The translations under genes were made by a program, and so were the position numbers. Under the pieces are notes generated by a model. That model was not told where the DNA came from. It did not search any database and was given only the letters and a program-made list of their open reading frames with translations. DNA of 50,770 nucleotides from Bacteroidaceae bacterium (GTDB lineage: Bacteria > Bacteroidota > Bacteroidia > Bacteroidales > Bacteroidaceae): NCBI GenBank assembly GCA_017556585.1, contig JAFYMP010000087.1:1-50770 (forward strand). The letters are read 5' to 3'. Of the stretch, positions 1-22,738 are shown one piece after another; positions within the stretch are counted from its first letter, which is position 1; each line of letters starts with the position of its first letter.

Positions 1-3000
1 CCGTCACCATGCAGGTTACCCTGGAAACAATTAACATCACTACTGTTATCACCAAGCTTCCAGTCTTTACCTTTATAGTATAATGGTTCCACATCACTCT
101 GCAATATAAATTCCAGATTCTTGGCATACTGTATCTGACCATTGTTGTTTCTGCCTGTTATCTGTTTAATTCCAACCTGTTTACCATAAATCAGATGTTC
201 ATTATACAACTCTATCAAGTAGTCAAATTCATTCAACTGAACTTCTGCACCATCTCTGTTTTCAGTATATACATCATCATTGATATATATCTTTGGATTA
301 CGTAGCATAGCCGGATTTCCTGAATATGTATCAGTTATTGAATCCACAAACATATATTCCGGATGATCCAATACATCCCTCAAACGATGGTAGTTTGCCA
401 CAGAGAGTCTCACCGGACTTGAATAGGTCTTACCAAGATATGTCTTGGCATAGTATGCTATCCAGTATTCATTCTGATACCAATATAGAGGAGCACGCCC
501 CTGCTGATATGCTACACCATTCTTATGAGCAAAAGCATCGTGTTCGTTAGAGAATATCTCAAATCCACCGCTCATAATTTCGTAAGCGCCCGGTGTTACA
601 GTAGGTGTATTCATACCCAATACATCGCCGGGCAGTACGGTCTGAGGAGTCTGCAGATCACCAATTTTAGGTACGCCACTTTCAAAGTGAACTCTGATAT
701 TTACAATATGACGTTCTGTAATCTCTTCAAAGTTCACGCCCGCCTGATCGCTTTCCAAGTAGGTATATTCATAAACCACCGTTACTATTTTGTCTTCTGA
801 CAAGTCTCTTACATCGGCACTTCTTGGAACATACAGAGTTGATGTTTCGGTTGGCATGGTGCCCTGCACCTGGAAACCGGTCTGCATATTTACCACGTGT
901 TCATCGTAGGAAGCTTTTGTTATAACATCACCTACATTAATACCTGAGTTAGCGGATTTTTCTGTTGTAGTTACTTCTTTTAGCTTATACTCTCCATTTA
1001 CGGAATCAAGTACGTGTAGATTATTTCTATTCTTAAATCCATCAACACATACATAATATACGCCAGCCTCGGCAAATGAATACTGCATTACCGAACTTTC
1101 TGCTGTATTCTCATCTACTTTTAATTTTTCATAATCAGTATCTATCAATACCCTGCCGCGTGTGTAGTAACTATCACCCACCTTGAATGTATTCTTAACT
1201 ACATAGAATGTATTCTTTTCCTTAGCAGGTGTTACACTATTATCTACACGCAGATGTTCATCTGTAACGTTTACCATTGCGAATTTGCGCTTTTCATTAG
1301 GCAGTTTTTCAAAATTAACATTATTCAGTACTACACCTTGGCTTATTGTACTCAATGATGTTCCATTTATATCGCTTATACCTAAATCCGTTACAGTCAA
1401 ATTGCTTCCTCCCATGTATTTAGCTGTATAATCCACTCGTGTTGGTCCACTATATCTGTTTCCTTTGTTTTCTGGATTAGGATCTACTTCTTGCGAAGGA
1501 TCGTACAAATTTAAATTGCCATTAAAATTTGTACTCAACAGGTCGAATGCATCTTTATTGAAAGTGAAATTTTCACGCTCACCCGGTAAAATTGTAGCAT
1601 ACTTCAATGCACTATAGCTATTTGTATTTACAAACAGATAACCACCAAACTTACCAGTTTTAGTACATAGCCATGTTTTTGGATTATCACTGCCATCTAT
1701 AGAGAAATAGTTTTTAAATTCCGGATTTGTGTTTATAAGTTCATTATATTCGGTAAGAGGAATTATATCTCCATTATAGCACCACTCCTCTTCGGCCTTT
1801 TCGAATGTCTGAATACACAATACCGCTTTCTCCAGATACTCTCTGACTGACGCATTACTTGATCTCTCATAATCGGATTGGGATATCACATTACCTGCTG
1901 TAACATACATATCTATCTCCTGACTATTTTCGTCTAAGGTCTTGACGTGAATATTCTCTTTTGCCACGTATGCTATTTCAAACTCAGCCTGTTCTGTTGG
2001 TCGTGCTACATTTTTATTATCTGCATCGGTAAGCAAATCCTGCTGCTCCTGCCATAGATCATTATTGATAATATCACCTGCATTGTATATATACTGACCA
2101 AATATACCGCCTGTTACATTCTTAAATGAAGGACCCTGGATATAACTCTCTTTTGTACCAGAACTTTCATAGGTTTCCTTATTTATCTGCATTGGAACAC
2201 CGGATAACTGTGTATAATAGCCATCCCATTGAGCAGGATTATTCATCTTATATGTAAGCAGGAATCCTTCATCCTTACCCATATTATTGGTAGGATGGAA
2301 GAAGTAAGATACAGGAACCTCCTTAAAAGCGTCCGCAGTTGTACCCTCCGGATCGTGAATCTTCACTTTTACGGTACTGCTCTTTAATGTCTCATACACA
2401 GAAGGCAAAATTACCTTACCTTTCTTATAGGCCAAATTGCCCAAATCATTTCCATTTGTATCTTTTGTTTCACCATCAATATTCAGTACATCATCTATAC
2501 ATACGTATGTTGTCTTTGTAAAGAAAGCCTTTTCCGATTCTGCAAGCCTGTTGTAATCCCAACTGCTTATAGGATCGTTTGTATGGTAGTACTGACCTGC
2601 TATTCTAACAGAATCATCTGCAGTCAATATTCTACCACCATAGTTCAAACCTTCGTAGTATGCATAATAGCTATCGTCAACACTTAACAATTGCAATTTA
2701 CCATTAGCACCTGCTGTTATGCTAAGAGGAATAGAGACTGTCTCTGAATATGACTGCGGTGTACCTGTATAAGCAGATATCGTCTGGTTATATACGTAGA
2801 AATCACCACGAACATACCAATAGTGAGCAGGCGAATTTTTATCACCATTATTCGGGTAACAATCATCTACAATCTGTTTAAAACTATGTACGAAGTTTCC
2901 TGATGATGCATACGTCTCTGAATCTCCTTCATATTTAAAACGCTTATAAGAAACCGCTCCATTGTTTGATGCAGCCAATGTTACATTATCAGCTCCGGAA

Positions 3001-9191: not shown

Positions 9192-9216
9192 ACTCTATTT
9201 TCTCTCTTTAAACTAC

Positions 9217-10248
9217 TTATTGTACCAACATAACCGATTCTTTATCTGTATCGCTTAACGAATAGAGATATGTAGGCACTATATTTACATTCAGTGTATA
9301 TTCTTTTGCACGCTCTAAAATTCCGGTATTAATTAGTTTGATTGATGAATTAGTCACTGTCTGATCTGCTCGCACCAATGTTCCGGCTTTATCATAAACA
9401 TCGTATTTAACAGTCATGACAACATTATTCTGTACACCTGGTACCGAATAGAATGTTCCTACACTCTTTTCAGATGTATTATCCAATACTAATCCATCAT
9501 CTGTTATGGAAAAACTAACTTTATTATCAACAACTGCACCCTTTGACATTACATACCCTATTGCAGAGCCATCATTCATCGTACAAGCTATGTTTACACT
9601 CTGATAGTCACCGGCAGCAGGCTTTAATGTAACCTCCTTTATCTTTATGGTTCTTATATTGCTGTACTTTTCGTGAACCTTGAAATTCAGCTCAACCTTT
9701 GCCATTACCCTGTCCATCATAAATGTTACATAGTTTTTGGTATCTTCACGCGACTCTACATTTATTCTATAGGTATTCTTAAGCAAACTTTCTGTTTTAT
9801 CGCTAGGAGTTTTATCTTTAGTTACTGTTTCTGCTACTGCACCGGAAGAGAGTAAGATCTCTTCTGCCATTATAAACGGCACATCTGGAAAAGTGATAAC
9901 ATTTCCTATTAATGTAACACCGTTTCTCTTTGGAATGTATGAATAGATATTATATTGGGTAGGATCTAATTTTAGTGACGATTCCCAACTACTGCCATTG
10001 TAAGTGACTGTACTTTCGTTCTGCATACCACTTACAAATACACCCATACTTGTTGAACCGGATACGGTACTGCCATAACCGGACGGGGCCTTTGTCTTAA
10101 TTTCCATGTCCTGCAGATATGGTGTAGTAAATTCCACCTTTACACCGGTTTCAAATTCATCAAATTCCGATGCACAGCCAGCCATAAGTAGTACCAATAC
10201 CACTAATAAGGACCACTTTCTGAGTATGTCAACAATATATCTGTTCAT
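9217..10248 (-). CDS. Fimbrillin-like lipoprotein 10 (divergent, last before the giant gene)
   Basis: This is a 343-residue lipoprotein with lipobox LMAGC (Cys25), sixteenth in a row of envelope-directed sequences and the tenth fimbrillin-like cistron. A TKA motif lies at about residues 52-55 in KTKAPS. It is assigned to the fimbrillin superfamily by position, size and the two-beta-domain pattern. It has lost the YWP..G..F.AYSP core, which is replaced by YSYIPKRNG, and the HALSQ motif, which is replaced by MDRVMAKVEL. The C-terminus ends SVMLVQ without the usual W-containing terminal strand. It starts 14 bp after the previous stop and precedes the giant gene by 25 bp. Inference: a minor or adaptor subunit joining the stalk to the terminal protein. 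Family assignment is less certain than for its neighbours. Confidence 0.75.
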   Translation of the reverse strand: MNRYIVDILRKWSLLVVLVLLMAGCASEFDEFETGVKVEFTTPYLQDMEIKTKAPSGYGSTVSGSTSMGVFVSGMQNESTVTYNGSSWESSLKLDPTQYNIYSYIPKRNGVTLIGNVITFPDVPFIMAEEILLSSGAVAETVTKDKTPSDKTESLLKNTYRINVESREDTKNYVTFMMDRVMAKVELNFKVHEKYSNIRTIKIKEVTLKPAAGDYQSVNIACTMNDGSAIGYVMSKGAVVDNKVSFSITDDGLVLDNTSEKSVGTFYSVPGVQNNVVMTVKYDVYDKAGTLVRADQTVTNSSIKLINTGILERAKEYTLNVNIVPTYLYSLSDTDKESVMLVQ

Positions 10249-10262
10249 CTCTACTTTCCATT

Positions 10263-11333
10263 TTACCAGTTAAATACAGGAGGTTCGTAGGTAGATCCTG
10301 TAGTCCAATTTTCAACCACTACTGTATTGATTTCAACCTTAGATGCAGTATTGAATCTAAGTGTTACTATATATTTCTTACCTGCCTCAAACTTATTTAT
10401 AGTTACGGCATGACCTGTTATATCATGAGTAGTAGGATCGTTCTGACCATCATCCTTATTATAGGTGATCTGAAATGCCAAACTGTGCGGATTTGCATCG
10501 CCACCAAATTCAAATGGAGCAACCAACATCTTAGCTAAAACCAACGGGCTATTAACAGTTTCATTTGGAATTTCTTGTTGCCCATCAATAGAAGTTATTG
10601 AATATTTTCCTTCGTTTTGATAGTTAACACTACTCCAATTTGACTGTGAATTATCTAAAACATTTTTAATAAAAGTTCTATCATCAGACTTTGCCATTTG
10701 ATTTTCGGTATCGCCCAAATCCAGGGATGCTACTTTGAATACCACATTTCTCATACTTGCAATATCTGCTTTCACTGCTCGGATTTCCAGATATGCAAGT
10801 TCGTGTTTGAGTTCAAACTGTACCTTACCATTACTGAACTCGCTTTGATAAGAACCACTCTTTGTATCGGTAAGAATATCTATTGCACGCTCTATCTCAT
10901 TATCTGTCATTACAGATTGATATTGTGGAATACCACTAAAAGTCATTGTGCGCGCTGCAAGATCTGTAGTCGGATTGCTACTAAATGGAGCATACGCTGT
11001 AAAGATATAGTTATCACTCTTTGACCAATATGACACAGGTGAATATGTCCAGTTTCCATTTGAGTATGTAACCTGCTGGTTTTTCATAATTGGAGCATAA
11101 GTATTACCTTGCTGTATATATGCAGTTACACCTATACCGGTTGTTTGAATACCTGTAACATCGGATATTAGTGCTTTAGTTTCCACACTGCCTGTAAATG
11201 AGATAGGAATCTTTTCCGCAAAGTCTATATTTTCGCGGTCGCACGATGTTAGTATAGGCACTGTTATAAAGAGCATTAACAGCGACAACAAACTATCTTT
11301 ATATCTACCTTCTTTTCTATTCATAACAATCAT
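10263..11333 (-). CDS. Fimbrillin-like lipoprotein 9
   Basis: 356 residues with lipobox ILTSC (Cys31) if the ATG at 11333 is used. That ATG overlaps the upstream TGA as ATGA, which implies translational coupling. An internal ATG at 11324 is an alternative and gives a more ordinary signal length. After the lipid cysteine come PISFTG and TKA. The core is degenerate: SYWSKSDNYIFTAYAP replaces YWP..G, and FELKHELAYLEI replaces the HALSQ motif. The C-terminus has VVVENW followed by a short tail, so the terminal-strand tryptophan is kept. It is intermediate between the main stalk-like group and the most divergent tenth cistron. Confidence 0.85.
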   Translation of the reverse strand: MIVMNRKEGRYKDSLLSLLMLFITVPILTSCDRENIDFAEKIPISFTGSVETKALISDVTGIQTTGIGVTAYIQQGNTYAPIMKNQQVTYSNGNWTYSPVSYWSKSDNYIFTAYAPFSSNPTTDLAARTMTFSGIPQYQSVMTDNEIERAIDILTDTKSGSYQSEFSNGKVQFELKHELAYLEIRAVKADIASMRNVVFKVASLDLGDTENQMAKSDDRTFIKNVLDNSQSNWSSVNYQNEGKYSITSIDGQQEIPNETVNSPLVLAKMLVAPFEFGGDANPHSLAFQITYNKDDGQNDPTTHDITGHAVTINKFEAGKKYIVTLRFNTASKVEINTVVVENWTTGSTYEPPVFNW

Positions 11334-12433
11334 TGTGGTTCAACTATCTCTTCACTACCAGACCAATCTCCGTATGTTGCTTCAAGCGATATTGCATCCA
11401 AACCTATACGGATATTATACACCAGTTTCTTCCCCATTTCAAGCACCTGTTTAGGATTACCCTGAATCTGTATGGAGTTACTGAACGTAATAGTATATGG
11501 TGCAACTATAACTTCATCTCCTCTCTTTGTTGTCTGGGTTACAGAATATGTTACATCAAGAGCTGCATCCTGATTCAGAGTCTGAGGAATAAGAAGTGCT
11601 GCTAAATCTGTATTTTCATCCAGTTTTACAGGGACACTCTTTGGTTTATTTGTACCATCATATTGCAATACCGTTCCCTGTCCCGGTTCCTTATTCAAAA
11701 GAGTATAATCTATAAGATAAGGAACAGTATAAGTATCTGACTCATCATACACATCCCATTGCGGGTTAGTATTCTGTTTAAAGCTACCAATATGGTACAT
11801 CTGTTTCAATGACAACTTATCTATGGTTATTGTAACATGGTTTGTTATACCATCTGCAGTTGTATTAAAATACTTCTGCGGTTCTACAGTAAATGCAACC
11901 TGCGTAAGAGCATGCTTGAATGTTATACCCACTGTTGGAAGATGTTCTGCATTGTTTATCTTTTTATCCAAAGGTTCAGAATACATAAAATCAACTTGTG
12001 TATCTTCAAAAGAGTCTATTTTATAATTTAAAAGAGATACACCATTTGGATATTCAATTTTAGCACCTTGTGAAGACAAACTTGCAGGGGAATATGCTTT
12101 GAAATCCATATATCCTGAAAGTGGCCAGTAGTAATCTGTAGGGGTACTCCAAACAGTTCCGTTATGACTTACCACATTACTTTCTATATAGTTAGTCTGC
12201 GGTGTTACATCGTCTTGATTTGTAAAATAGAATGCACTAATACAGAAACTCTCTGTTGTGAGATATTCTGTACTTTGAGTTATGGCTTTAGATGCACGAG
12301 CTTTATTTACCACCGGTTGGAAAGTCATAATCTCTTGTTTTTCCACCGGATTATCCAATGCACACGACACCATTAACAATGCTGAAATAAGCATCATTGC
12401 CACCTTATTATAGATTCTGCACATTCTATTCAT
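11330..12433 (-). CDS. Fimbrillin-like lipoprotein 8
   Basis: 367 residues with lipobox LMVSC (Cys24). The mature start has EIMTFQP and SKA. The core is close to consensus: YYWPLSGYMDFKAYSP, then DFMYSEPLD, then FKHALTQVAFTV. The C-terminus has TYGDWSG, a shortened form of the terminal W strand. Its start lies 10 bp after the stop of fimbrillin 7, and its TGA overlaps the ATG of fimbrillin 9. It belongs to the Mfa_like_1/fimbrillin family (PF13149-type) by motif recognition. These proteins are exported as lipoproteins, processed at the surface and polymerised by strand exchange in characterised relatives. Confidence 0.9.
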   Translation of the reverse strand: MNRMCRIYNKVAMMLISALLMVSCALDNPVEKQEIMTFQPVVNKARASKAITQSTEYLTTESFCISAFYFTNQDDVTPQTNYIESNVVSHNGTVWSTPTDYYWPLSGYMDFKAYSPASLSSQGAKIEYPNGVSLLNYKIDSFEDTQVDFMYSEPLDKKINNAEHLPTVGITFKHALTQVAFTVEPQKYFNTTADGITNHVTITIDKLSLKQMYHIGSFKQNTNPQWDVYDESDTYTVPYLIDYTLLNKEPGQGTVLQYDGTNKPKSVPVKLDENTDLAALLIPQTLNQDAALDVTYSVTQTTKRGDEVIVAPYTITFSNSIQIQGNPKQVLEMGKKLVYNIRIGLDAISLEATYGDWSGSEEIVEPQ

Positions 12434-12443
12434 ATAGTTTTAC

Positions 12444-13508
12444 TCAATACTTACCTGCAAAACAGTCAAATACTATATCGTTTATATCTTCCTGTTCCCA
12501 ACCTGAAACCACAGGTTCAAAACGAATTTCGTTATTAGCTCCATTCATTGAGAATCCTAAATGATATACATAGCGTACACCCGCTTTAAATTCCCAATTC
12601 TTGTTATAATCATACAGACTTACAGTAGCTTTCTGATTTGGACGAGCAGAGTAAATCTGACCATTCAGCGAGAATTCGTCAATATCATAAACTACAGATA
12701 TTGTCTGAATATCTACTTTTAAAGGAGTAGGCACCACTACAAACAGAGCACTCTTGTCTTGAATAGATGTCATACTGTCTATAGAAAGATATCTATCTTC
12801 CTGAGTAAGATATTCATCACCGCTAAACAGCACAAATTCTGTTGTATTATCCAGATTTGACCATTCTCCGCCTTTGCCCGGTTCAGGTCCATCAAGATAA
12901 TCGCCGGTAACGCTTACACCACCTACTCTAACCTCTTTAAGCCTGATTTTACCCTTCAGTTCATCGCGTGTGGTTGCATCGCGTGCAGTAACCACCACCT
13001 GACTGGAAATATGCTTAAATACCATCTTTACAATTGGCATTTCTGTAGCTATCTGGTCATTTGTAGTTGCTACCAAAGGATCGGCCTGTTCACCTATAGC
13101 ACTGCCCAAATTTACATTTGTAAGGTTCCATCTGAATGTCTCATTGACCATCTTCAGTTCTGCATTATCGGCGCTATACGGATAGTATGCATAGAAATCT
13201 ACAGTTCCTTTTTCCGGCCAAAGATAAACATTGTCGCTCGCAGCTTTCCATTCACCCTCCTTATTCTCTATAACTACATTGTTCATAAGGAAGTTGTTTG
13301 GATTATCATCTACTATAGCAGAGACAGCAAACGATTCGGCTTCGGGGAACGATATTTCACCATTCTCCGATCCCCAAGGATTGATAAGCGCTTTAGTGCT
13401 TACTGTACTTGGACCAAATGTAACTTCTGTGCGTGGTATCAATAGTTCGTTCTGTGAACAACCTATCAGCACCACTGCCGCTGCTACTATTGTTAAAACC
13501 CTCTTCAT
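12444..13508 (-). CDS. Fimbrillin-like lipoprotein 7
   Basis: 354 residues with lipobox VLIGC (Cys17). The early mature region has EVTFGPS and STKALI. The core is LWPEKGTVDFYAYYP, followed by a charged stretch and MVFKHISSQVVVTA, where the usual HAL is HIS. The expected DLMYS segment is replaced by DPLVATTND. The C-terminal strand is IRFEPVVSGW with an extended tail ending FDCFAGKY. That tail contains a cysteine outside the lipobox, which is rare in this set. A 57-bp gap separates it from fimbrillin 6, the largest gap in the operon; I see no promoter box in it. Confidence 0.9.
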   Translation of the reverse strand: MKRVLTIVAAAVVLIGCSQNELLIPRTEVTFGPSTVSTKALINPWGSENGEISFPEAESFAVSAIVDDNPNNFLMNNVVIENKEGEWKAASDNVYLWPEKGTVDFYAYYPYSADNAELKMVNETFRWNLTNVNLGSAIGEQADPLVATTNDQIATEMPIVKMVFKHISSQVVVTARDATTRDELKGKIRLKEVRVGGVSVTGDYLDGPEPGKGGEWSNLDNTTEFVLFSGDEYLTQEDRYLSIDSMTSIQDKSALFVVVPTPLKVDIQTISVVYDIDEFSLNGQIYSARPNQKATVSLYDYNKNWEFKAGVRYVYHLGFSMNGANNEIRFEPVVSGWEQEDINDIVFDCFAGKY

Positions 13509-13565
13509 ATCTATACTTTAGAGGTTAATATTCTGTTTTTATTCTAAAAATTGTTCCTTTCAATA

Positions 13566-14615
13566 TTAATTACCTGCAGCTGGCTGTTCTGGTACATCGT
13601 AACTTGAACCACCAACACTCCAATCCTCTTCAATAGAAGGTGAGTACAAAATTCTATCAGCATAAAGTGTAAGATTCAATGTATATTTCTTACCCATATC
13701 CAATTTTGTTAAAGCATCATTTGTACCAGAATTCAGATCAACATACTTAGTTGTAGAAGTAGTAACATTATTAAATGTCATAGAATAAGAGATAACCAAT
13801 TTCTGCTTATTATTTTCTAAATCTTGTGGAATAACCAAAACCGCTTTTCCTACTTGTGGTACATCTCCAGTGGTATAAGACACAGCTTCTTCGTCATCTA
13901 AAATTTGGAATAAAGCATTTTTTAGTTTTGTATCTTCATCCCAACCCCATGAAGCTACCGGGTCTCCACTCTCTGCAACGGTTAATGTTGCATTATCATT
14001 CATTTGCTGTAGAGATATACTGTTGATTTTGAATGTAGCACCTGCATATTCTTGCGCAACTTTTGCAGTCACTACAATCTGTGACAGTGCGTGCTTAAAT
14101 GTAATTCCTACACCGGCGCCTCCTCCGTTTACACCTGTATAATTAGCTGAATTGTGGCGTTCTTTAGTCAAATCGGTTAAAGGTGTTGAATACATCAAAT
14201 CTACAGGATTTGCTTCTTTACCTGCAGCTACGAATGGTAGAATTAATTCCTTATTTTCTAAGTCGTAATCAGCAGTAATTGTCTCTGTCTTTGGCGACCA
14301 TGCAACCATACCTAATGTTCCTGACAATGGCCAATAAGCGATTGGATTAGAAATAAAAGTTTTAGCATCGCTGTTATAAGAACAGGTTGCATTATTAATA
14401 TACAACTTATTACTTGATCCATCGTTATGATATGCATAAAGGCCAAAAGGAAGGTCTGAAGGATATATGTTACCTGTTATTATAGTCTTTGAATTTACTG
14501 CCTTGTACTGCAATGGTGAGAAACCTATTTCTTGTCTCTCTATAGTTAATTCATTCTGGGTACAGCTTGCCAAAGCTATTGTGGCTAATGCTGCTAAAAA
14601 TAGACTCTTTTTCAT
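13566..14615 (-). CDS. Fimbrillin-like lipoprotein 6
   Basis: 349 residues with lipobox ALASC (Cys18). EIGFSPLQYKA is followed by SKT in place of the common TKA. The core is YWPLSGTLGMVAWSP, then DLMYSTPLTDL, then FKHALSQIVVTA. The terminal strand is ILYSPSIEEDW with a tail ending PAAGN. It groups with fimbrillins 4 and 5 by its signal peptide, the EIGF..L.YKA block and the C-terminus, which suggests these three arose by local duplication. Codon use and composition match the neighbours. Confidence 0.92.
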   Translation of the reverse strand: MKKSLFLAALATIALASCTQNELTIERQEIGFSPLQYKAVNSKTIITGNIYPSDLPFGLYAYHNDGSSNKLYINNATCSYNSDAKTFISNPIAYWPLSGTLGMVAWSPKTETITADYDLENKELILPFVAAGKEANPVDLMYSTPLTDLTKERHNSANYTGVNGGGAGVGITFKHALSQIVVTAKVAQEYAGATFKINSISLQQMNDNATLTVAESGDPVASWGWDEDTKLKNALFQILDDEEAVSYTTGDVPQVGKAVLVIPQDLENNKQKLVISYSMTFNNVTTSTTKYVDLNSGTNDALTKLDMGKKYTLNLTLYADRILYSPSIEEDWSVGGSSYDVPEQPAAGN

Positions 14616-14650
14616 ATTTTTCTGTTTTATTTATTCGCAATTTAAACTTA

Positions 14651-15808
14651 TTATACTTCTGGTACTGCATATTCTGCACCCTGTGGAGTCCAGTCAATAA
14701 CATCTGGTGAATAGAGAATTTCGTTTGCAGAGATGCTCAGATTCAATGTGTAAACCTTATTCTGCTCCAATGAAACCAATTGTGTATTTAATGTTACAGG
14801 CTTTGTAATCTCAGTAACAACAGCAGGAGCAATGCCTGCACCATCAGGATCTACTGTCATAGTGTATGTTACCAACAACTTCACGTTTGCATCAAGTGTT
14901 TGAGGTATTGCCAAAAGACCATTGCCTGCAGCCTCTTCGCTCTTATAATTTACTGCAGATGCAGTAGTAGAATTCAATGTTACGTAATTTGCTTCGGCAT
15001 CTGGAGCAAAGAAATCAAACACCATATCACGACCACTTGCTGTACCCAATGCAGTTGTTGGATCTGACCAGGTAGCATTATCATCTGTTACAGTTAGTGT
15101 AGCATTATCCTCAAGGTTTGCTACCTCTATCTTCTTTATTTTGTATGTTGCAAAATCGCTATAATCAGCAGTAGTCTTTGCAGTAATCTTAATACGGCAA
15201 AGTGCGTGGTTAAACAGGATTGGCACTCCGTTGTATTCCTGCTTTATTTCACCCTGTATTACATCATTTATTTTTCCATTTGAAGTCTTATCCTTTGAGA
15301 GTTTGCTCCACATCAAGTCCTTTTGTCCTTCTGTTCCAGCCTGGAAACCATTAATAGTCAAAACAGATGCCTTAATTGGTGATTGATTCGCATCTACCAC
15401 ATCAATAATAGCATGAGTAACTTTACCTTTTTCTGAATATGGTGAATAAGCAATAAAGGTCAATGAACCCTGCAAAGGCCAGAAACTCTTTGGGTTTGTG
15501 CGCCAATTGCCATCAGTAGTAGAATAAGATACCTCCTTTTCATCTATATACAACTTAGCTTTATCTATATCATCAGTGAAATTCAAGCCATCAGCAAGTT
15601 GATAAGCGAACAGACCAAATGAAGGAGCATCTGTTCCGTAAGTAGCACCGGTAATCACGTTTACGTTTGCTTTTGTCTGTGAAGCTTTGTAGGCTAATGG
15701 CTGGAAGCCTATCTCCTGCTGTTCAACTATTGATTCATCTTTTGTACAGCCGGCCAGAACCATTGTGGCAATAGCTGCTATAAACATACTCTTTTTCATA
15801 TTTTTCAT
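14651..15808 (-). CDS. Fimbrillin-like lipoprotein 5
   Basis: 385 residues from the first ATG (Cys21 in lipobox VLAGC), or 382 from the ATG three codons later. It is the longest fimbrillin of the set. EIGFQPLAYKA is followed by TKANV. The core is FWPLQGSLTFIAYSP, then DLMWSKLSKDK, then FNHALCRIKITA. An unusual cysteine replaces S in the HALSQ block. The terminal strand is ILYSPDVIDW with a tail ending YAVPEV. Gaps are 15 bp upstream and 35 bp downstream, consistent with a shared transcript. Confidence 0.92.
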   Translation of the reverse strand: MKNMKKSMFIAAIATMVLAGCTKDESIVEQQEIGFQPLAYKASQTKANVNVITGATYGTDAPSFGLFAYQLADGLNFTDDIDKAKLYIDEKEVSYSTTDGNWRTNPKSFWPLQGSLTFIAYSPYSEKGKVTHAIIDVVDANQSPIKASVLTINGFQAGTEGQKDLMWSKLSKDKTSNGKINDVIQGEIKQEYNGVPILFNHALCRIKITAKTTADYSDFATYKIKKIEVANLEDNATLTVTDDNATWSDPTTALGTASGRDMVFDFFAPDAEANYVTLNSTTASAVNYKSEEAAGNGLLAIPQTLDANVKLLVTYTMTVDPDGAGIAPAVVTEITKPVTLNTQLVSLEQNKVYTLNLSISANEILYSPDVIDWTPQGAEYAVPEV

Positions 15809-15823
15809 TATTATAGAAAGTTC

Positions 15824-16882
15824 TTACTTAATTTGGTATTCCTCGTCTGCTGTTGACCATTCAACAATGCTTGGTGAGAATAGAATCTCATCGGCACCTA
15901 TTGACAATGTAATGGTGTACTTTTTATTTGCGTTAAGTTTGTCACCTACAATCTCGCTAAGCATCTTTGAGACCCTTTTTGTTGTTTTAGGTACATCAAC
16001 ACCATTTATTTGAGTCATAGAGTAAGTTACTTCTAACTTGATATCTTCTGCCAATGTTTGTGGTATAAGCATTAGCGGAGAACCAAGTTTTTCTGCACGT
16101 TCACCTATAGTTTTTACCTCGTTTTCTGATAATGAAACAAATGTAGCATCATCAGTAGTAGTTGTTTTCCAACCATCTACAAGTCCATTGTCACTGCTTG
16201 CAACATCTTTGACCACTGTCAGTGTACCTTTGTTAGCAACTTCTGTAATCTGAATTTTATTTATCTGGATGGTATTGGCTGATGCCTCCTTATTTTCAGC
16301 CATAAACGCAACCTGTGCCAATGCGTGATTAAATACAACAGGAACGCCTGTTTTTACTGAACCATCGTATTGTACTGTGTTTGCAGACTTTAAATCAAGA
16401 GCACTGGTAATCTTTGAATACATCAAATCAGCCTGTTCTGCCACAGTTGTAGAAGATGAGAAATCTGTTACAGTAAGTGTAGCTGCCTGATTAGCAAAAT
16501 CACTATTTGCAGTTGCAGGCGATACAGCTACAAATGTAAGAGAACCTGACATTGGCCAGTAATACTTAATGAATTTGGAGTCTGTGCTTGACCATGGTCT
16601 CCAAATCTTATAGGTATCTGTTTTATCGTATGCAACCTCTGTTTCAAAATACTTTTCAGAAGATGCATAGTTTGTCAAATAATTACCCTCTCTATCCAAA
16701 GCAGCAAATACTTTGAAGTTTGGGGCATCTGTACCATAAACAGCACTTTCAATAGGAGCCTTGGTCTGTTTGAAATTGTAGGCGCGAAAACCTATCTCCT
16801 GAGGTTCTGATGTCAGTTCCTCCTTAGCACAACCTGCAAATAGTAACATTGCAGATGTCATAAATAATACGACCTTTTTCAT
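15824..16882 (-). CDS. Fimbrillin-like lipoprotein 4
   Basis: 352 residues with lipobox LFAGC (Cys18). EIGFRAYNFKQ is followed by TKAPI. The core is YYWPMSGSLTFVAVSP, then DLMYSKITSAL, then FNHALAQVAFMA. The terminal strand is ILFSPSIVEW with a tail ending YQIK. The conserved spacing between the DLMYS and HAL blocks matches fimbrillins 5 and 6. It is probably an exported, surface-anchored pilus subunit precursor; which of the ten is the major shaft protein cannot be told from sequence alone. Confidence 0.92.
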   Translation of the reverse strand: MKKVVLFMTSAMLLFAGCAKEELTSEPQEIGFRAYNFKQTKAPIESAVYGTDAPNFKVFAALDREGNYLTNYASSEKYFETEVAYDKTDTYKIWRPWSSTDSKFIKYYWPMSGSLTFVAVSPATANSDFANQAATLTVTDFSSSTTVAEQADLMYSKITSALDLKSANTVQYDGSVKTGVPVVFNHALAQVAFMAENKEASANTIQINKIQITEVANKGTLTVVKDVASSDNGLVDGWKTTTTDDATFVSLSENEVKTIGERAEKLGSPLMLIPQTLAEDIKLEVTYSMTQINGVDVPKTTKRVSKMLSEIVGDKLNANKKYTITLSIGADEILFSPSIVEWSTADEEYQIK

Positions 16883-16919
16883 ATTTTTGTTCTTTTATTT
16901 TTTTCAGTTTAAGTACTTA

Positions 16920-17912
16920 TTACTCCATATCGACTGTAGATACCTGAACCTCTACCCAATCGTTAATGCTTGGAGCAAAGTTGATTTCGTCAAGTTTGAA
17001 GTTCAGGGTATAGATATACTTCTTACCCATCAGCCATTCGGTTGCAGTTGCATTATTTGCTGTAGCAGGATTAAGTGCTATATTGAAAGTATATTCTATA
17101 TCGTCTGTATTCAGCATTGAGACTGTAAATACAACATCGGCTGTTGCAGCAGTTTGCGGAATAAAGAGCAGAGGTGCACCGTATGTTGCAGCAGGGGTAC
17201 CTTGAGCTGTCTCAACAGCGGCTGCACTTGTTTGTGCATAATATGAATAATCTGATGTCTGGTCTGTGTTCTTGCTCCAGCCTGCTGTTGGAGCAGCCAA
17301 AGAATTATGATTAAAATCTGCTGTTAAATCTACATTCTTAAAAGTGATTGAATTGATTTTAACTGTTGCATCTGCATAAGTGTCGTTGGTCTGATAGCGG
17401 AACTCTATCTGGCTGAGTGCATGGTTAAACACCATAGGAAGAGCATCCTGCTCAGGTCCTACATTGTAAGCATACATCAAATCAGTTTCCTGAGTATTTG
17501 GAGAGATAGCATAATTTGCTATTGTTGCACCAGTATTCCAGGCAAAAGCAGGAACAGTAGTTTCAGGATAAAAAGCATAGAAACCTACCTTTCCCTGATT
17601 TGGCCAATAGTAGTGGTTTGTGGCATTACGCCATTTGTCTTCATTTTCTATATATGAAATTTCCACTCCTTTCATAAAGTTTGGTGCTGCTGTAGCCTCT
17701 ACATCAGAGAAATCGCTTTCCTGTGTATAGTAGCCCCACACTTTGAACTTTAAATCTTCTGTGAATGTACCACCCGTAATTATAGCTTTAGTATTCTTAC
17801 GTACCACTGCATTGAAACCTACTTCGTTAAGTTCCGGTGTATCAATCTCATTCTGTGTACAAGCGGTCAAGCCAAGTACTGCCAATATTGTAAAGTATTT
17901 TAAAGTTTTCAT
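16920..17912 (-). CDS. Fimbrillin-like lipoprotein 3
   Basis: 330 residues, the shortest of the ten, with lipobox GLTAC (Cys18). EVGFNAVVRK is followed by TKAII. The core is YYWPNQGKVGFYAFYP, then DLMYAYNVGP, then FNHALSQIEFRY. The terminal strand is INFAPSINDW. It resembles fimbrillin 1 more than its immediate neighbours (shared WGYY/WGFY, NFM.G, GFYA.YP and DLMYAY blocks). Similar genes are therefore interleaved rather than strictly adjacent, which argues for old duplications. Confidence 0.92.
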   Translation of the reverse strand: MKTLKYFTILAVLGLTACTQNEIDTPELNEVGFNAVVRKNTKAIITGGTFTEDLKFKVWGYYTQESDFSDVEATAAPNFMKGVEISYIENEDKWRNATNHYYWPNQGKVGFYAFYPETTVPAFAWNTGATIANYAISPNTQETDLMYAYNVGPEQDALPMVFNHALSQIEFRYQTNDTYADATVKINSITFKNVDLTADFNHNSLAAPTAGWSKNTDQTSDYSYYAQTSAAAVETAQGTPAATYGAPLLFIPQTAATADVVFTVSMLNTDDIEYTFNIALNPATANNATATEWLMGKKYIYTLNFKLDEINFAPSINDWVEVQVSTVDME

Positions 17913-17959
17913 ATTATTTTCTCCTTATTATATATTATACGGTTCTATTCTTACTATTT

Positions 17960-18964
17960 TCAAATTTCAAAATCTATGTTATTTCCGGTTTCCCAGTTCT
18001 CTACTGTAGGATCAAAAGATATTTCGTTCAGACCTATTCTTATATTATAGGTGTAGATATATCCCATCTTCCACTCTTGTACTGTAGAGAAATATTTGGT
18101 ATCGGTAGATGTACTGCCATTGTCAAATTCTATGGTATATACTATTTCTACTGCATCTATATCCAAGTTCTGTCCCCACTTGTATCCACTTGCATTTTGC
18201 GGAATAGGCAGAATTGGGGTTCCAACCTGGACAGATGTTGTTCCGTCTATAACTAAAGATACAGGCGATGATACCACTACATAATCTGAAGCCTGAGAAT
18301 AGTTACTCCAGGAACCTGTTTCGCGTGTTCCATCGGTGGTCGCATAATCTGCCATTGTATTTAAGCCATGCAATACAAGTTTATCTATAGTGATTGCACT
18401 TACATTGGTACCGGCTGTATAATTAAAGTTACTCTGCGCTCTGAACTTTATCTGCGATAACAGATGACGGAAAGTTACAGGAACGGGGGCAACTGAATTC
18501 TTTTTATCTGTAATTAAATCGGCAGCCATTAGGTCTATCTGTTCATTTACATCTGTTGGAGCAACAAAATCTGTAAACGATACACCTTTTATATATGATG
18601 CTGCTACGGTTCCATTAAATTCATACGGACTATAACAAGCAAAGGTTAAAGAGCCTTCTGATGGCCAGAAATATTTTTTTGCAATATTTCTCCAGGAACC
18701 ATCTGTTGCATCCTTTTCTATTTCCACATTATCCATATAGTTTGCTGCTGCCCAAGAACCATCTTCCAGTTCGTGGAAAGCATAAACTCCAAAGTGTTCT
18801 GCTTCATGATATGCAGAACCTATAGTCCCAAAGACATTTGCTTTGGTGGAATTAAGAGCAACTGCCTTGAAACCTATCTCTTCTCTTTCAACGCTGTACT
18901 CTTTTTCTGTGCAAGCCATAAAGGCTGGCACCAAGGTTAACAAAATGTAATAAAACCGTTTCAT
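17960..18964 (-). CDS. Fimbrillin-like lipoprotein 2
   Basis: 334 residues with lipobox AFMAC (Cys18). EIGFKAVALN is followed by TKANV. The core is YFWPSEGSLTFACYSP with a non-lipobox cysteine, then DLMAADLIT, then FRHLLSQIKFRA. The terminal strand is ISFDPTVENW. It lies between fimbrillins 1 and 3, with a 32-bp gap upstream and a 47-bp gap downstream. Confidence 0.92.
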   Translation of the reverse strand: MKRFYYILLTLVPAFMACTEKEYSVEREEIGFKAVALNSTKANVFGTIGSAYHEAEHFGVYAFHELEDGSWAAANYMDNVEIEKDATDGSWRNIAKKYFWPSEGSLTFACYSPYEFNGTVAASYIKGVSFTDFVAPTDVNEQIDLMAADLITDKKNSVAPVPVTFRHLLSQIKFRAQSNFNYTAGTNVSAITIDKLVLHGLNTMADYATTDGTRETGSWSNYSQASDYVVVSSPVSLVIDGTTSVQVGTPILPIPQNASGYKWGQNLDIDAVEIVYTIEFDNGSTSTDTKYFSTVQEWKMGYIYTYNIRIGLNEISFDPTVENWETGNNIDFEI

Positions 18965-18996
18965 GTTATCTGTAAATATCGTTATTATCTATTTAA

Positions 18997-20010
18997 TTAA
19001 GGTACCTGTATTCTATTTACGCTTATCTCTGTCCAATCTGTTACCTCAGGATTGAATGTAATTTCGTTTAAATTGAAATTGAGAGTATAAACGTACTTAG
19101 TACTTAAATCCCAACTCTTTTGCAATGTTGATATATCTTTAACCAACTGACCTGTCATAACAGTTCCATCGGCTTGAATCATTCTATATGAAATGCTGAT
19201 AGATGTCTTTGCGTTATCTGCTTTGCTCAGTTCCTGCGGCATCATTACCATTGCAGTTGAATAGGTACTTGCAGTAGCAGAAAGAGACTTCTTATCGTCT
19301 GAATATACTATGCTCTCTGTCTGATTGTCTGAATTATCAATCCAACTTCCCATACTTGAAGGCTGAACATATTTGAATGTTGCCTGCAAATCAACATTTA
19401 AAAGCTGAATCTCATCTATATAGAATTCCACATCCGGATAGTTCTCTTCTAATTTAAGAGCTAACTCTATTTGCGATAAGGCATGCTTAAACTGAATAGG
19501 CAGCGCCGTTGAACGATTTGTACCTAATGTATAAGCATACATCAAATCTGTATATTTAGATGTTAAATCCAAAGTGTAATCTTCAACTACCAAACCATTA
19601 CCTTTAAATTCCGGAGCCTGTACTCCTGATAATCCTGATGGATATATTGCATAAAAACCAATTACTCCGGTTGTTGGCCAATAGTAATACTTATCCTTAT
19701 TACGCCATGCTTCAGGGCGTGTGGCATCGTTTCCGGAAGTCCATTCTATCTTCAGTCCATCCATAAAGTTCGATGTTGAATTATCTGCAAATTCATTAAA
19801 CGAACCATCATTGGAATAGAAACCCCAAATATCGAATGATTCAGTCTGCGGCAAAGCACCGGCAGATAATATTGCTTTTGTAGCATTGCCGGTAACAGCA
19901 TTGAATCCTATTTCCATAGTCTCCGGCATATAGGACTCATGTGTAGCACAAGATGCCAAAAGCCCCAATGCTATTACTAAAACTGATATTTTCTTTCTTT
20001 TCACTTGCAT
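18997..20010 (-). CDS. Fimbrillin-like lipoprotein 1
   Basis: 337 residues from the ATG at 20010. This start is preferred over the longer in-frame ATG at 20055 for two reasons. It begins with the charged n-region QVKRKK directly before the signal helix and lipobox LLASC (Cys21), and it lies 11 bp after the DUF5119 stop instead of inside that gene. EIGFNAVTGN is followed by TKAIL. The core is YYWPTTGVIGFYAIYP, then DLMYAYTLG, then FKHALSQIELAL. The terminal strand is ITFNPEVTDW. It is the first fimbrillin of the operon and closest to fimbrillin 3. Confidence 0.92.
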   Translation of the reverse strand: MQVKRKKISVLVIALGLLASCATHESYMPETMEIGFNAVTGNATKAILSAGALPQTESFDIWGFYSNDGSFNEFADNSTSNFMDGLKIEWTSGNDATRPEAWRNKDKYYYWPTTGVIGFYAIYPSGLSGVQAPEFKGNGLVVEDYTLDLTSKYTDLMYAYTLGTNRSTALPIQFKHALSQIELALKLEENYPDVEFYIDEIQLLNVDLQATFKYVQPSSMGSWIDNSDNQTESIVYSDDKKSLSATASTYSTAMVMMPQELSKADNAKTSISISYRMIQADGTVMTGQLVKDISTLQKSWDLSTKYVYTLNFNLNEITFNPEVTDWTEISVNRIQVP

Positions 20011-20021
20011 ATCTTCTGTAA

Positions 20022-21119
20022 TTATAAGTCTATATAATGATGTTCCTCTTCCCATTCTGAAACACCCGGTTGGAAACCACCGCCTCCACTACCTGCTGGT
20101 GGGTCGGGAACAACAATTTCATCCTCAATAATAATCTTATGTTCAGGATTATCAAAAAATTCATCTGTAATATCCTTATGCCACTCTACGGTCTGTCCCG
20201 ACTGTGTAGTCAGGAATATAGTTAGCCATAGTTTTGTCTCTTTACCCGGCAATTTACCGAAAGTATTAAAGGTACTATGTACCATATCATTATCGGCTGC
20301 ATCACTGCCTGCATACAGTGGGAAATACAATGACACATTATCGTCCGATTTTCCCTCCTCTTTAGGATATGCTATAAAATTAGAACCTATCTGTCCGGTA
20401 AGCAGTGCGTTTGCAGATGCCATGTGCTTGATATTCTTAACACGCACACTTAAGTAATAGGTCTCAACAACTGTCTCTGCTTCTACTTCTACCACCTGTT
20501 CTTCCACATCGTTGTAGATAGTTATATTCTCTCGAGCCACAAACAGATGGTCAGGTTCATAGACTATTTTTGTATTTTCCAGTCCGTCCATTGATTCAGC
20601 CCACTCTTTGTCTTCTTGCGATATGGTATCGCCCTCTATATCATCGTCATCAATAACTACCGTATCGCCTTCTGCTCTTGTGTGTGCTCTATGGCGGGCA
20701 GATTTTGTCTCTATTTCTGCTTTAGATCTGCCTATTACACTAAGCGCTTTATTCTTAATCTGCTGAGAGATTTCGTTTGTATATGCCTCCATCTGATACA
20801 ACTGCATATCGTTACGTATCAGAGTAGATTCTGTATCAAAGTTATACACTATTAGCTTATAATCGCCCGGAGGAACACTTATATAACCACCTTCTGACGG
20901 GATATAGTCTTCTGTAAAACGACGATTTGTATTAGGATCGTAGAATATAACACGCATCACTTCTACAGTAGGAGGTTCGTCAACATTTTGTATTTGCAAA
21001 TTGATTTTCAAACGCAGCAACAAGTTCTTATTGAGATCGCTAAGCGGACGCAATTCACATGACGTCAACAGAATTAACGTCATCAAAATTGTAATATACT
21101 TAGAATATCTCCTACTCAT
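20022..21119 (-). CDS. DUF5119-type fimbrial accessory lipoprotein (possible anchor)
   Basis: 365 residues from ATG at 21119; the frame can be extended two codons to a TTG, which is less likely. The lipobox is LLTSC (Cys21). The first domain (about 30-120) has VEVMRVIFYDPN and SVPPGDYKLIVYNFD, the pattern of DUF5119 proteins found beside Bacteroidales fimbrillin genes. A low-complexity acidic linker follows at about 150-185 (VVIDDDDIEGD), then a second beta domain. The C-terminus is GGGGFQPGVSEWEEE, which mimics the terminal W strand of the fimbrillins. It lies 11 bp after the DUF3575 stop. Inference: an FimB/Mfa2-like anchor or assembly protein at the pilus base. The family is recognised; the role is inferred from context. 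Confidence 0.85.
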   Translation of the reverse strand: MSRRYSKYITILMTLILLTSCELRPLSDLNKNLLLRLKINLQIQNVDEPPTVEVMRVIFYDPNTNRRFTEDYIPSEGGYISVPPGDYKLIVYNFDTESTLIRNDMQLYQMEAYTNEISQQIKNKALSVIGRSKAEIETKSARHRAHTRAEGDTVVIDDDDIEGDTISQEDKEWAESMDGLENTKIVYEPDHLFVARENITIYNDVEEQVVEVEAETVVETYYLSVRVKNIKHMASANALLTGQIGSNFIAYPKEEGKSDDNVSLYFPLYAGSDAADNDMVHSTFNTFGKLPGKETKLWLTIFLTTQSGQTVEWHKDITDEFFDNPEHKIIIEDEIVVPDPPAGSGGGGFQPGVSEWEEEHHYIDL

Positions 21120-21130
21120 ATCCAAATTAT

Positions 21131-22447
21131 CTATTTGCTTTTCAAATTCAAATTAATAGGTCTAACCAAAGAGAACTTGATATTGGTTGGACCAAAATAT
21201 TTCACTCTACCGGCCTTATTGACATCTTTAATCAATCTGTCATAGTTCAAAGATGGATAATAGTGCTGATATGTAATATTTGCATAGCCAACAGAGGCAG
21301 CCATTTCAAAATTCCACTTTTTCTTCTTTCCTACAGGGAAGGAATATCCATAAGATGCACCTGCAGACCAAATTTTTCCTTGATAACACAAATCAAAATA
21401 GTACTGGAAGTCATATAAGCCGGTATAACCATACAGTCCCACAAAATGGCCGCGCAACTTCTCGTTACGATTTTCTGGTTTTTTAAACCAATATCTTACC
21501 TCCGGTCCCATAACCCACAGTTCATAACACTGTTTGTATCCGTTATGATACCAAGGGAAGATGTCTTCAAAATGCACTGACAGATGTTTACCGACAGGTA
21601 TTTCCAGAGTGACGTTTGGAGCCATCACTGCGTCAAACAGCAGATTGGTTTTAAGAGCTGCTATGGTTACAGGCTCTTTTTCCACAGGCAAACGATCCAT
21701 AACAGGATAGTCTATTTCATTCAATCTATCAGGTAGCGGTTTTACTGTTAGACCTTGAGTATAAAAATTCGTTGGAACATTATGCTTTCTGAATTTGATC
21801 TGGACACCGGCACCTCTCAATACAGGGTAGTATTTACGATACAAATATCTGTAAACAGCACCTACAGATGAATCGTTACCCAACCTGTTTTCCATTCTCC
21901 ACTTTTTGGTCTCTATGCTGATTTCATCTTTTGGGTAGATGACAGAGAGTACCCTCTCTTTACTTTTTTCAGAGAGCAGTGTATCGTCCACTACGTAAAC
22001 AGACAAATCGTCCCATGCTTCTATTACGCTATGCACCAATATTTTTTCCTGCAACATTGGCCAATTACTGCGCATATATTCGCTGATTACCTCTGTTCTA
22101 TGCTCGGTAAGCCACTTGTTACGCAAATACACACCTTCAGGTGAAGACTGTACAACTATCTCAATTTCAAGGATATTATCTATTCCAACCTGTTCAATTG
22201 CCTTGTGCAATTTGTCCAAAGAGATTGAGTTATCTCTATAATCTTCATAGAGTTTCTCATCGTTCAGGCGGAACAGAACATCGGTTTCGAATGTTTCGTA
22301 AAGATCTATGTAGATGGAGTCAACAAAGAGAGTATCACTTGATGAAGCAGATGTATTAACATCAGCAGGCGCAACCATTGCCTGTACAGGCAGCATAAAG
22401 CAAGCCAGTACCAAAAACAATATACATTCCAACGCTCGTTTCATCAT
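21131..22447 (-). CDS. DUF3575 outer-membrane protein with OmpA-like N-terminal part
   Basis: 438 residues (MM start; the second Met is equally possible). The Sec signal is followed by a periplasmic region. There, QSSPEGVYLRNKWLTEHR at about 103-120 resembles the OmpA peptidoglycan-binding loop (SPEG..N..L...R). From about residue 265, AALKTNLLFDAVMAPNVTLE begins a DUF3575 domain. It is rich in alternating aromatic strands (GLYGYTGLYDFQYYFD) and ends close to the C-terminus, consistent with a small beta barrel. It is the first gene of the pilus operon, with a promoter about 65 bp upstream. DUF3575 genes commonly accompany Mfa-type fimbrial genes. Inference: outer-membrane platform or wall tether for the pilus. 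Confidence 0.85.
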   Translation of the reverse strand: MMKRALECILFLVLACFMLPVQAMVAPADVNTSASSSDTLFVDSIYIDLYETFETDVLFRLNDEKLYEDYRDNSISLDKLHKAIEQVGIDNILEIEIVVQSSPEGVYLRNKWLTEHRTEVISEYMRSNWPMLQEKILVHSVIEAWDDLSVYVVDDTLLSEKSKERVLSVIYPKDEISIETKKWRMENRLGNDSSVGAVYRYLYRKYYPVLRGAGVQIKFRKHNVPTNFYTQGLTVKPLPDRLNEIDYPVMDRLPVEKEPVTIAALKTNLLFDAVMAPNVTLEIPVGKHLSVHFEDIFPWYHNGYKQCYELWVMGPEVRYWFKKPENRNEKLRGHFVGLYGYTGLYDFQYYFDLCYQGKIWSAGASYGYSFPVGKKKKWNFEMAASVGYANITYQHYYPSLNYDRLIKDVNKAGRVKYFGPTNIKFSLVRPINLNLKSK

Positions 22448-22512
22448 ATTTGTAGTCCTTGTCTTGTTCTCTTTTATATAACACGCACGCTCTCACGCGC
22501 GAAGATAGTTTG

Positions 22513-22541
22513 CAAAGGTATAAAGAAAATCTTGTTCACAA
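22513..22541 (-). promoter_or_regulatory. Promoter of the pilus operon
   Basis: On the minus strand, the -7 box TACCTTTG is at 22520-22513 and a TTG -33 element is at 22541-22539, with an 18-bp spacer. This matches the Bacteroidetes TTTG/TAnnTTTG pattern. The predicted transcript start is near 22506, leaving a leader of about 60 nt. I saw no flanking inverted repeats that would make it an invertible promoter. It is the only promoter found for the 12 complete genes and the giant gene. Confidence 0.65.
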
Positions 22542-22685
22542 CGTGCTTAACGTCAATTTTTGGAGTTAAAATTCAATTTTTTTTCTAAGAAAACAAACCG
22601 CCAAAACCAAAATGTAAACTATTATTACTATAAAATCCCGGAAAGCATTCGCATGATTTTTTTCAAATTAGCGCATCGCACTCTG

Positions 22686-22713
22686 TTGAATCAACAATAA
22701 TTTTGTAAGTTTG
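22686..22713 (+). promoter_or_regulatory. Promoter of the flippase gene
   Basis: The -7 box TAAGTTTG is at 22706-22713 and TTG is at 22686-22688, with a 17-bp spacer. The spacer start contains a short palindrome GTTGA-A-TCAAC (22685-22695) that could be an operator. The predicted start is about 20 nt before the ATG. Confidence 0.6.
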
Positions 22714-22738
22714 CAGAACCAATAGAGAGATAGGAATT

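Follow-up and report, generated by a model that had tools for sequence, protein, structure and literature searches.

The stretch of DNA analysed here (the window) is the entire 50,770-nt contig JAFYMP010000087.1, contig C13 in our numbering, of the Bacteroidaceae bacterium assembly GCA_017556585.1, a genome assembly of 2.09 Mb in 103 contigs that is 82.8% complete. We describe a putative type V pilus operon on its minus strand, which runs from position 22447 to the contig edge and comprises thirteen open reading frames (ORFs): a DUF3575 gene, a DUF5119/Mfa2 gene, ten genes for fimbrillin-like lipoproteins (f1–f10 in gene order) and the truncated gene of a giant protein (Table 1).

Table 1. Features of the pilus operon, in the direction of transcription
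Feature	Position in window	Strand	Evidence or character
-7-type promoter element TACCTTTG, upstream of operon	22513..22520	-	TAnnTTTG scan
DUF3575 protein, 438 aa	21131..22447	-	PF12099 107.8 bits (cut-off 21.1)
DUF5119/Mfa2-like lipoprotein	20022..21125	-	PF17145 82.7 bits; PF08842 Mfa2 29.3 bits (cut-off 21.2)
f1 fimbrillin (ATG at 20010; ORF open to 20055)	18997..20010	-	PF13149 74.2 bits
f2 fimbrillin	17960..18964	-	PF13149 97.6 bits
f3 fimbrillin	16920..17912	-	PF13149 96.2 bits
f4 fimbrillin-like	15824..16882	-	No Pfam fimbrillin match; BLAST 33.5% identity to f5 (E 3e-49), 32.5% to f6
f5 fimbrillin	14651..15808	-	PF13149 73.3 bits in genome scan; no match in protein scan
f6 fimbrillin	13566..14615	-	PF13149 78.7 bits
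f7 fimbrillin	12444..13508	-	PF13149 74.4 bits
f8 fimbrillin	11330..12433	-	PF13149 74.4 bits
f9 fimbrillin, conserved penultimate place (proposed tip module)	10263..11333	-	PF13149 58.8 bits; clade support 0.997
f10 pilin-like lipoprotein, almost always beside the giant (proposed tip module)	9217..10248	-	hhalign 98.3% to f1–f8; clade support 1.0
Giant protein, at least 3063 aa, truncated at contig end	1..9191	-	Hydrophobic N-terminus, YGGG-type motifs to residue 1627, conserved region beyond

The gaps between the genes are, in gene order, 5 (11 if DUF5119 is read from its first ATG), 11, 32, 47, 37, 15, 35, 57, 10, -4, 14 and 25 bp. Scanning the minus strand from 1 to 22740 for TAnnTTTG, which we take to be the Bacteroidales -7-type promoter consensus, we found 23 sites: 22 lie within genes and the sole intergenic one precedes DUF3575. 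No such site was found between the operon genes, which is weak evidence against internal promoters because the gaps total less than 300 bp. Several claims of a first-pass annotation of this DNA were thus borne out: thirteen same-strand genes with tight gaps (-4 to 57 bp, including a 4-bp overlap), one recognisable promoter, ten non-identical fimbrillins (all distinct, with 13–40% pairwise identity) and a terminal protein of at least 3063 residues, its ORF being open at the window edge. The arrangement is not peculiar to this contig. In the sister genome (G003) DUF3575, DUF5119, f1–f9 and the end of the giant are found on three contigs, in the same order up to f9; f1–f9 span two of these contigs, the aligned parts are free of stop codons, and f10 falls in a contig break. 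Similar operons occur in other genomes.

Just past the -7 element, close to where the operon leader would begin, lies a G+C-rich hairpin (22484–22501). A sigma-70 scan was uninformative, giving 40 promoter-like sites vs 50.6 expected and 11 terminator-like sites vs 7.5. An invertible promoter was considered as well: the region 22440–22740 holds two imperfect 10-nt inverted pairs, one of which has an arm over the -7 element, compared with a mean of 4.35 pairs in 60 first-order resamples, so that this candidate was rejected as chance, if not disproved.

Ten fimbrillins and their conservation

Above the Pfam Mfa_like_1 cut-off we found seven of the ten fimbrillins in the protein scan and eight in the genome scan, which added f5; f4 joins the superfamily by BLAST, and f10, without a Pfam fimbrillin match, by profile comparison only (Table 1). 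Solved structures were matched by the f1–f8 profile (4k4k, ‘putative cell adhesion protein’, E 9.6e-11) and by the f9 profile (4qb7, ‘uncharacterized protein’, E 1e-17). As in the lipoprotein precursors of type V pili, a lipobox Cys is present in all ten window proteins and in 117 of the 122 fimbrillins collected overall, as called by a simple rule rather than a signal-peptide program. With the five fimbrillins lacking a recognised lipobox left out, the motif [ST][KR][AST] occurs 12–60 residues past the lipobox Cys in 104/117 proteins, compared with 20.7 expected from shuffles. All ten window fimbrillins carry it, always with Lys and starting 21–27 residues past the Cys. At motif level this corresponds to the Arg/Lys processing site that follows the first strand in type V pilins, e.g. 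Arg49 of Porphyromonas gingivalis Mfa1, a gingipain site (PMC5954841). A gingipain homologue was considered and rejected, the sole C25 match in the window genome being PorU; a C11 (clostripain-family) peptidase is encoded, and cleavage of pilins by a surface clostripain is reported for Bacteroides (PMC12632263). Upstream of the fimbrillins, the DUF5119 protein scores above the cut-off for Mfa2, the Mfa2/FimB-type anchor subunit of type V pili, and is the probable pilus anchor; for the DUF3575 protein we infer an accessory role at the outer membrane.

Of 150 genomes searched, 19 gave a match to the giant, the window genome among them. Twenty regions around giant matches were retrieved and their ORFs (ATG start, at least 150 aa) classed by iterated profiles seeded with the window proteins; 13 show both a DUF5119 gene and the giant. 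Between these two genes, 12 of the 13 loci, all from the same genus, hold 6–12 fimbrillins (7, 10, 8, 12, 7, 6, 8, 7, 6, 6, 9 and 7; L011 has the twelve), so that ten is within the normal range. The earlier statement that typical loci carry one to a few structural subunits holds for P. gingivalis and fails for these loci. One of the 12 (L016) has a DUF3575-like gene among its fimbrillins and another (L023) a short giant of 1904 aa, while the thirteenth locus (L014) contains two recognised fimbrillins and three unclassified ORFs. As for the remaining regions, four (L009, L010, L015, L018) show one recognised fimbrillin ahead of the giant with other genes upstream, two (L005, L024) begin within the array and L022 is the giant end of the sister genome.

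In a tree of the 122 fimbrillins (FastTree, 346 columns) all 20 giant-adjacent genes form one clade (support 1.0), all 15 penultimate genes fall into another together with two further members (0.997), and f1–f8 make up a lineage-private clade (0.999). We then counted, over 15 loci and 111 genes, how often the best match in another locus stands at the same distance from the giant. This was so in 209/210 cases for place 0, 204/210 for place 1 and 148/210 for place 2, and in a fraction of 0.40 or less beyond; overall there were 768 same-place matches out of 1288 (0.596), compared with 0.141 on average and 0.189 at most when positions were shuffled 200 times, the loci being related and thus non-independent. 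The window f10 finds its match at place 0 in all 14 loci, f9 at place 1 in 12 of 14, while f1–f8 match scattered places. Since f1–f8 also sit in a clade of their own, the window array is, by sequence comparison, a conserved 3′ pair (f9, f10) joined to a private set of eight. The ordered segments suggested by the first-pass annotation are consequently supported only at the three places nearest the giant; for f1–f8 an order is neither shown nor excluded.

Compared with the sister genome, the ratio of nonsynonymous to synonymous substitution (dN/dS) is 0.04, 0.12, 0.17, 0.29, 0.45, 0.47, 0.08, 0.31 and 0.36 for f1–f9, highest in f5 and f6, and 0.08 and 0.05 for DUF3575 and DUF5119. These Nei-Gojobori values are approximate gene-wide averages without a significance test; dS is saturated in f1 and DUF3575, and recombination is likely. 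Along window positions 9217–22447, aligned to the sister stretches L051, L052 and L022, the synonymous difference jumps gene by gene between 0.14 and 0.75: it is 0.59–0.75 in DUF3575, DUF5119, f1 and f7, about 0.5 in f3 and f6, and 0.14–0.29 in f2, f4, f5, f8, f9 and the giant end, with six flanking genes at 0.54–0.76. Parts of the operon, down to single pilus genes, look to have been recently exchanged between the two sister species.

The window genome contains a second DUF3575–DUF5119 operon with five fimbrillins and no giant (L004; contig C95, 2114–12054). In its sister counterpart, L023, more fimbrillins, an f10-type gene and the short giant come after these, and the proposed tip module may therefore have been lost at L004. 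On contig C68 (L001 and L049) a DUF3868 gene lies close to a stretch 65% identical to f1 DNA, which may point to a third fimbrial locus. In L006 (11714–12931) a regulator of the AraC type is transcribed divergently from DUF5119; the same place is taken by ORFs of 403–424 aa in L007, L008, L013, L017, L019, L020 and L021, and by a polysaccharide biosynthesis (flippase-type) gene in the window.

The giant and the neighbouring pilin-like gene

The N-terminus of the giant is hydrophobic and lacks a lipobox Cys. Residues 42–1627 hold 34 YGGG-type motifs, irregularly spaced (mostly 24–61 residues apart), and for this part we propose a putative beta-solenoid fold. A region (1700–2960) with 38–45% identity to homologues comes next. 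A 937-aa piece from the sister genome overlaps residues 2881–3063 at 92.9% identity, which puts the full protein at about 3,817 aa; 15 long homologues measure 3777–4287 aa and the giant of L005 3685 aa. The next gene after the giant in the sister genome (L022) is on the opposite strand, so the giant closes the operon there.

Fifteen of 18 C-termini of giant homologues match the type A sorting domain of the type IX secretion system (T9SS), TIGR04183, at E≤0.01 (best 1.7e-7). A model made from the giant C-termini also recognises all 75 giants whose end is visible among named records; as it was built from these C-termini, this shows a constant tail and is no independent test of T9SS export. Both SprA (2671 bits) and PorU (459 bits, against a cut-off of 420) are encoded in the window genome, which has six further sorting-domain matches, three of them over the cut-off. 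The giant is thus a predicted T9SS cargo that resembles Mfa5 of P. gingivalis and differs in kind from the fimbrillins. The first-pass annotation had correctly placed it as the terminal gene of the array, and had not seen this difference in kind.

Profiles of the f10 type match in 50 of 301 genomes of the family at E≤1e-5, four of them weakly (1e-6 to 2e-8). We inspected 30 of the 55 matches, nearly all of them best-ranked (13 from genomes already known to carry the giant, one being the window and 16 from others), and at all 30 loci a giant repeat ORF adjoins on the same strand. In a further set from named genomes, which overlaps with the other genome set and in which a handful of genomes are represented by more than one locus, we used 80 of the 237 stretches encoding giant relatives: at 72 of 75 loci with a visible start the f10-type gene is directly upstream of the giant. 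At two of the exceptions (L109, L156) the repeat protein is split into two ORFs, and the f10-type gene stands ahead of the first. Many record titles refer to the rumen, the omasum and other herbivore gut sites, and a few records are named strains. Among isolates, the f10–giant pair is present in Prevotella lacticifex JCM 34664, Prevotella sp. tf2-5 and tc2-28 (loci L105, L115 and L134), where different genes lie upstream of it.

The genes before the pair can differ. In two genomes, G073 and G050, the second gene ahead of the giant has its C-terminus in common with f9 by profile comparison (94.3% and 93.3%), and in G073 this gene scores 27.7 bits for Pfam FimA, above the cut-off of 21.4. Farther upstream, three genes at lipoprotein positions in G073 have no Pfam match, and six upstream genes of the two genomes gave nothing convincing against the f1–f8, f9 and f10 profiles (five at 16.5% or less, one up to 64.1% over N-terminal columns). 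Profile support for these six genes as fimbrillins therefore failed; the negatives are weak because the same test is insensitive and also missed the known link between anchor and fimbrillins (1.9%, single sequence). Since f9-like gene, f10 and giant here follow genes without convincing similarity to f1–f8, comparison of these loci suggests that they form a tip module which is combined with different stalks. The f10-type gene of G073 (L009, 17555–18646) matches Pfam Exotox-A_bind exactly at the cut-off (20.5 bits, E 3.4e-4), which probably reflects chance or a resemblance in fold.

In some relatives the giant is followed by another very large ORF: L042 (after L005), L040 (after L024), L041 (after L023) and L125 (16301–23671), with 27, 1, 4 and 7 YGGG-type motifs, respectively; in L005 a small Lnb-like gene lies in between. 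This recalls the two tandem mfa5 genes of some P. gingivalis strains (PMC8313007).

A proposed tip module on a pilus stalk and competing explanations

We consider it probable that the operon encodes a type V (Fim/Mfa-type) adhesive pilus, in which f9, f10 and the giant form a tip module on a stalk of f1–f8. That this is a type V pilus operon, as first annotated, is supported by the protein families, lipobox, processing motif, anchor gene and gene order. By analogy with known pili, DUF5119/Mfa2 would anchor the fibre in the outer membrane and f1–f8 would co-assemble into the stalk. A trypsin-like protease, possibly the C11 clostripain-family protease of this genome, would cut f1–f8 after the conserved Lys, whereupon the cleaved proteins would polymerise by strand exchange. 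The giant, of about 3,800 aa, would cross the outer membrane by the T9SS and be displayed at the tip as an adhesin, with f9 and f10 as its dedicated adaptor. The model here is Mfa5 of P. gingivalis, a T9SS substrate at the tip of the Mfa1 fimbria that is encoded after mfa1–4 (PMC7835359, PMC8313007); the analogy fits because gene order, export signal and f10–giant pairing agree. A more specific version, a heteropolymeric pilus built in segments, with every fimbrillin at a fixed place in gene order and the fibre ending in the ~3,800-residue T9SS adhesin on its adaptor pilin, seems to us doubtful.

Several results weigh against this reading. The C-terminus of the window giant lies off the contig, so that the sorting domain is known from relatives; three of the 18 relatives miss E 0.01 for TIGR04183, and the sister giant end scores 22.9 bits (cut-off 23), or 17.6 bits for a longer piece. 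The full-length giant of L005 has no NCBIfam family at E≤1, a Pfam scan of two giant ends (sister and L005) gave nothing, and the window giant has no Pfam family above the cut-off, the best being DUF6110 below it (E 0.055). Profile comparison with f1–f8 found no similarity to the giant (0.1–0.2%), and against the PDB nothing convincing was found: the 1700–2960 profile had two weak matches (E 0.71 and 0.78) and the repeat profile none. The f10 profile likewise has no PDB relative at E≤1. The processing motif is missing in 13 of the 117 fimbrillins, including five of 18 f10-type genes and five first-in-array genes, and one locus (L125) has a giant without an f10-type match.

Some of these points feed a different explanation, which we regard as less likely, though by no means negligible: the giant could be a free-standing T9SS surface adhesin merely co-expressed with the pilus, with f10 acting as a partner on the surface and not as a tip pilin. 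A pilin has only about a tenth of the giant's size, the giant can occur without f10, and the pair is found with differing upstream genes lacking a convincing fimbrillin match in G073 and G050. These last negatives come from the insensitive profile test, however, and in G073 a FimA-like gene precedes f10. In addition, f10 is profile-related to fimbrillins and in the window bears both lipobox and processing motif, and Mfa5 sets a precedent for T9SS cargo at a type V tip. Returning to the stalk, f1–f8 could also be a reservoir of alternative proteins, one dominant at a time or each building its own fibre. Their lineage-private clade would suit this, as would the comparatively high dN/dS of f5 and f6 and the apparent exchange of several genes between species, which antigenic variants would be expected to show. 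Yet the genes are tightly spaced with no -7 site between them (itself weak evidence), inverted repeats at the promoter do not exceed chance and dN/dS stays below 0.5, well under 1, in nine of nine testable fimbrillins; we do not favour the reservoir, one of the two options that the first-pass annotation had offered, and think it rather unlikely. Finally, the window is one contig of a fragmented assembly, and the array might be an assembly chimera or a set of decayed duplicates. The conserved order of f1–f9 on two sister contigs without stops, and the similar operons in other genomes, make this very improbable and largely refute it.

Relation to known pili and biological meaning

The operon, as we read it with f9, f10 and the giant at the tip, seems to be an established type of pilus in elaborate form, not a new kind of system. 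The Mfa1 fimbriae of P. gingivalis (mfa1–mfa5) likewise combine fimbrillins, an Mfa2-type anchor, accessory pilins and a last gene with a T9SS sorting domain (PMC7835359, PMC8313007), the domain found here in most giant homologues; they differ in having one stalk gene compared with eight candidates here. The mfa5 genes measure 2.9–6.6 kb (PMC8313007), while the giant gene exceeds 9.1 kb and would reach about 11.5 kb by the sister arithmetic. Its repeat region matches no named family, and a Pfam scan found no von Willebrand factor (vWF) domain in the window giant. This absence is not defining, because the vWF domain occurs in the N-terminal half of Mfa5 genotypes A–C only, and genotypes D and E are also without it (PMC8313007). 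The FimA fimbriae (fimA–E) share stalk, anchor and tip accessory proteins and protease-triggered strand exchange; they comprise five genes, and a giant T9SS cargo is not described in the available part of the source (PMC7616799). Type V pili of Bacteroides share surface lipoprotein pilins, reported clostripain cleavage and the roles of anchor, stalk and tip, and are described as having three structural pilins, with type V pili in general described with one stalk pilin (PMC12632263), compared with ten fimbrillins and a predicted T9SS giant here. A literature search of titles and abstract openings, with subscription papers, among them the one that first described type V pili, outside its scope, returned no such fimbrillin arrays or giants; we do not claim that they are unpublished.

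With operons of 6–12 fimbrillins and a conserved pilin–giant pair, the ordering of subunits within a fibre would become directly testable, and so would the joining of a T9SS cargo to a lipoprotein-derived pilus. If the fibre were indeed segmented, two separate outer-membrane export routes would meet in one fibre. Many uncultured Prevotella-like bacteria carry the pilin–giant pair, as do a few cultured ones. The giants are very large predicted surface proteins of common herbivore gut bacteria, and they may be what these cells attach with.

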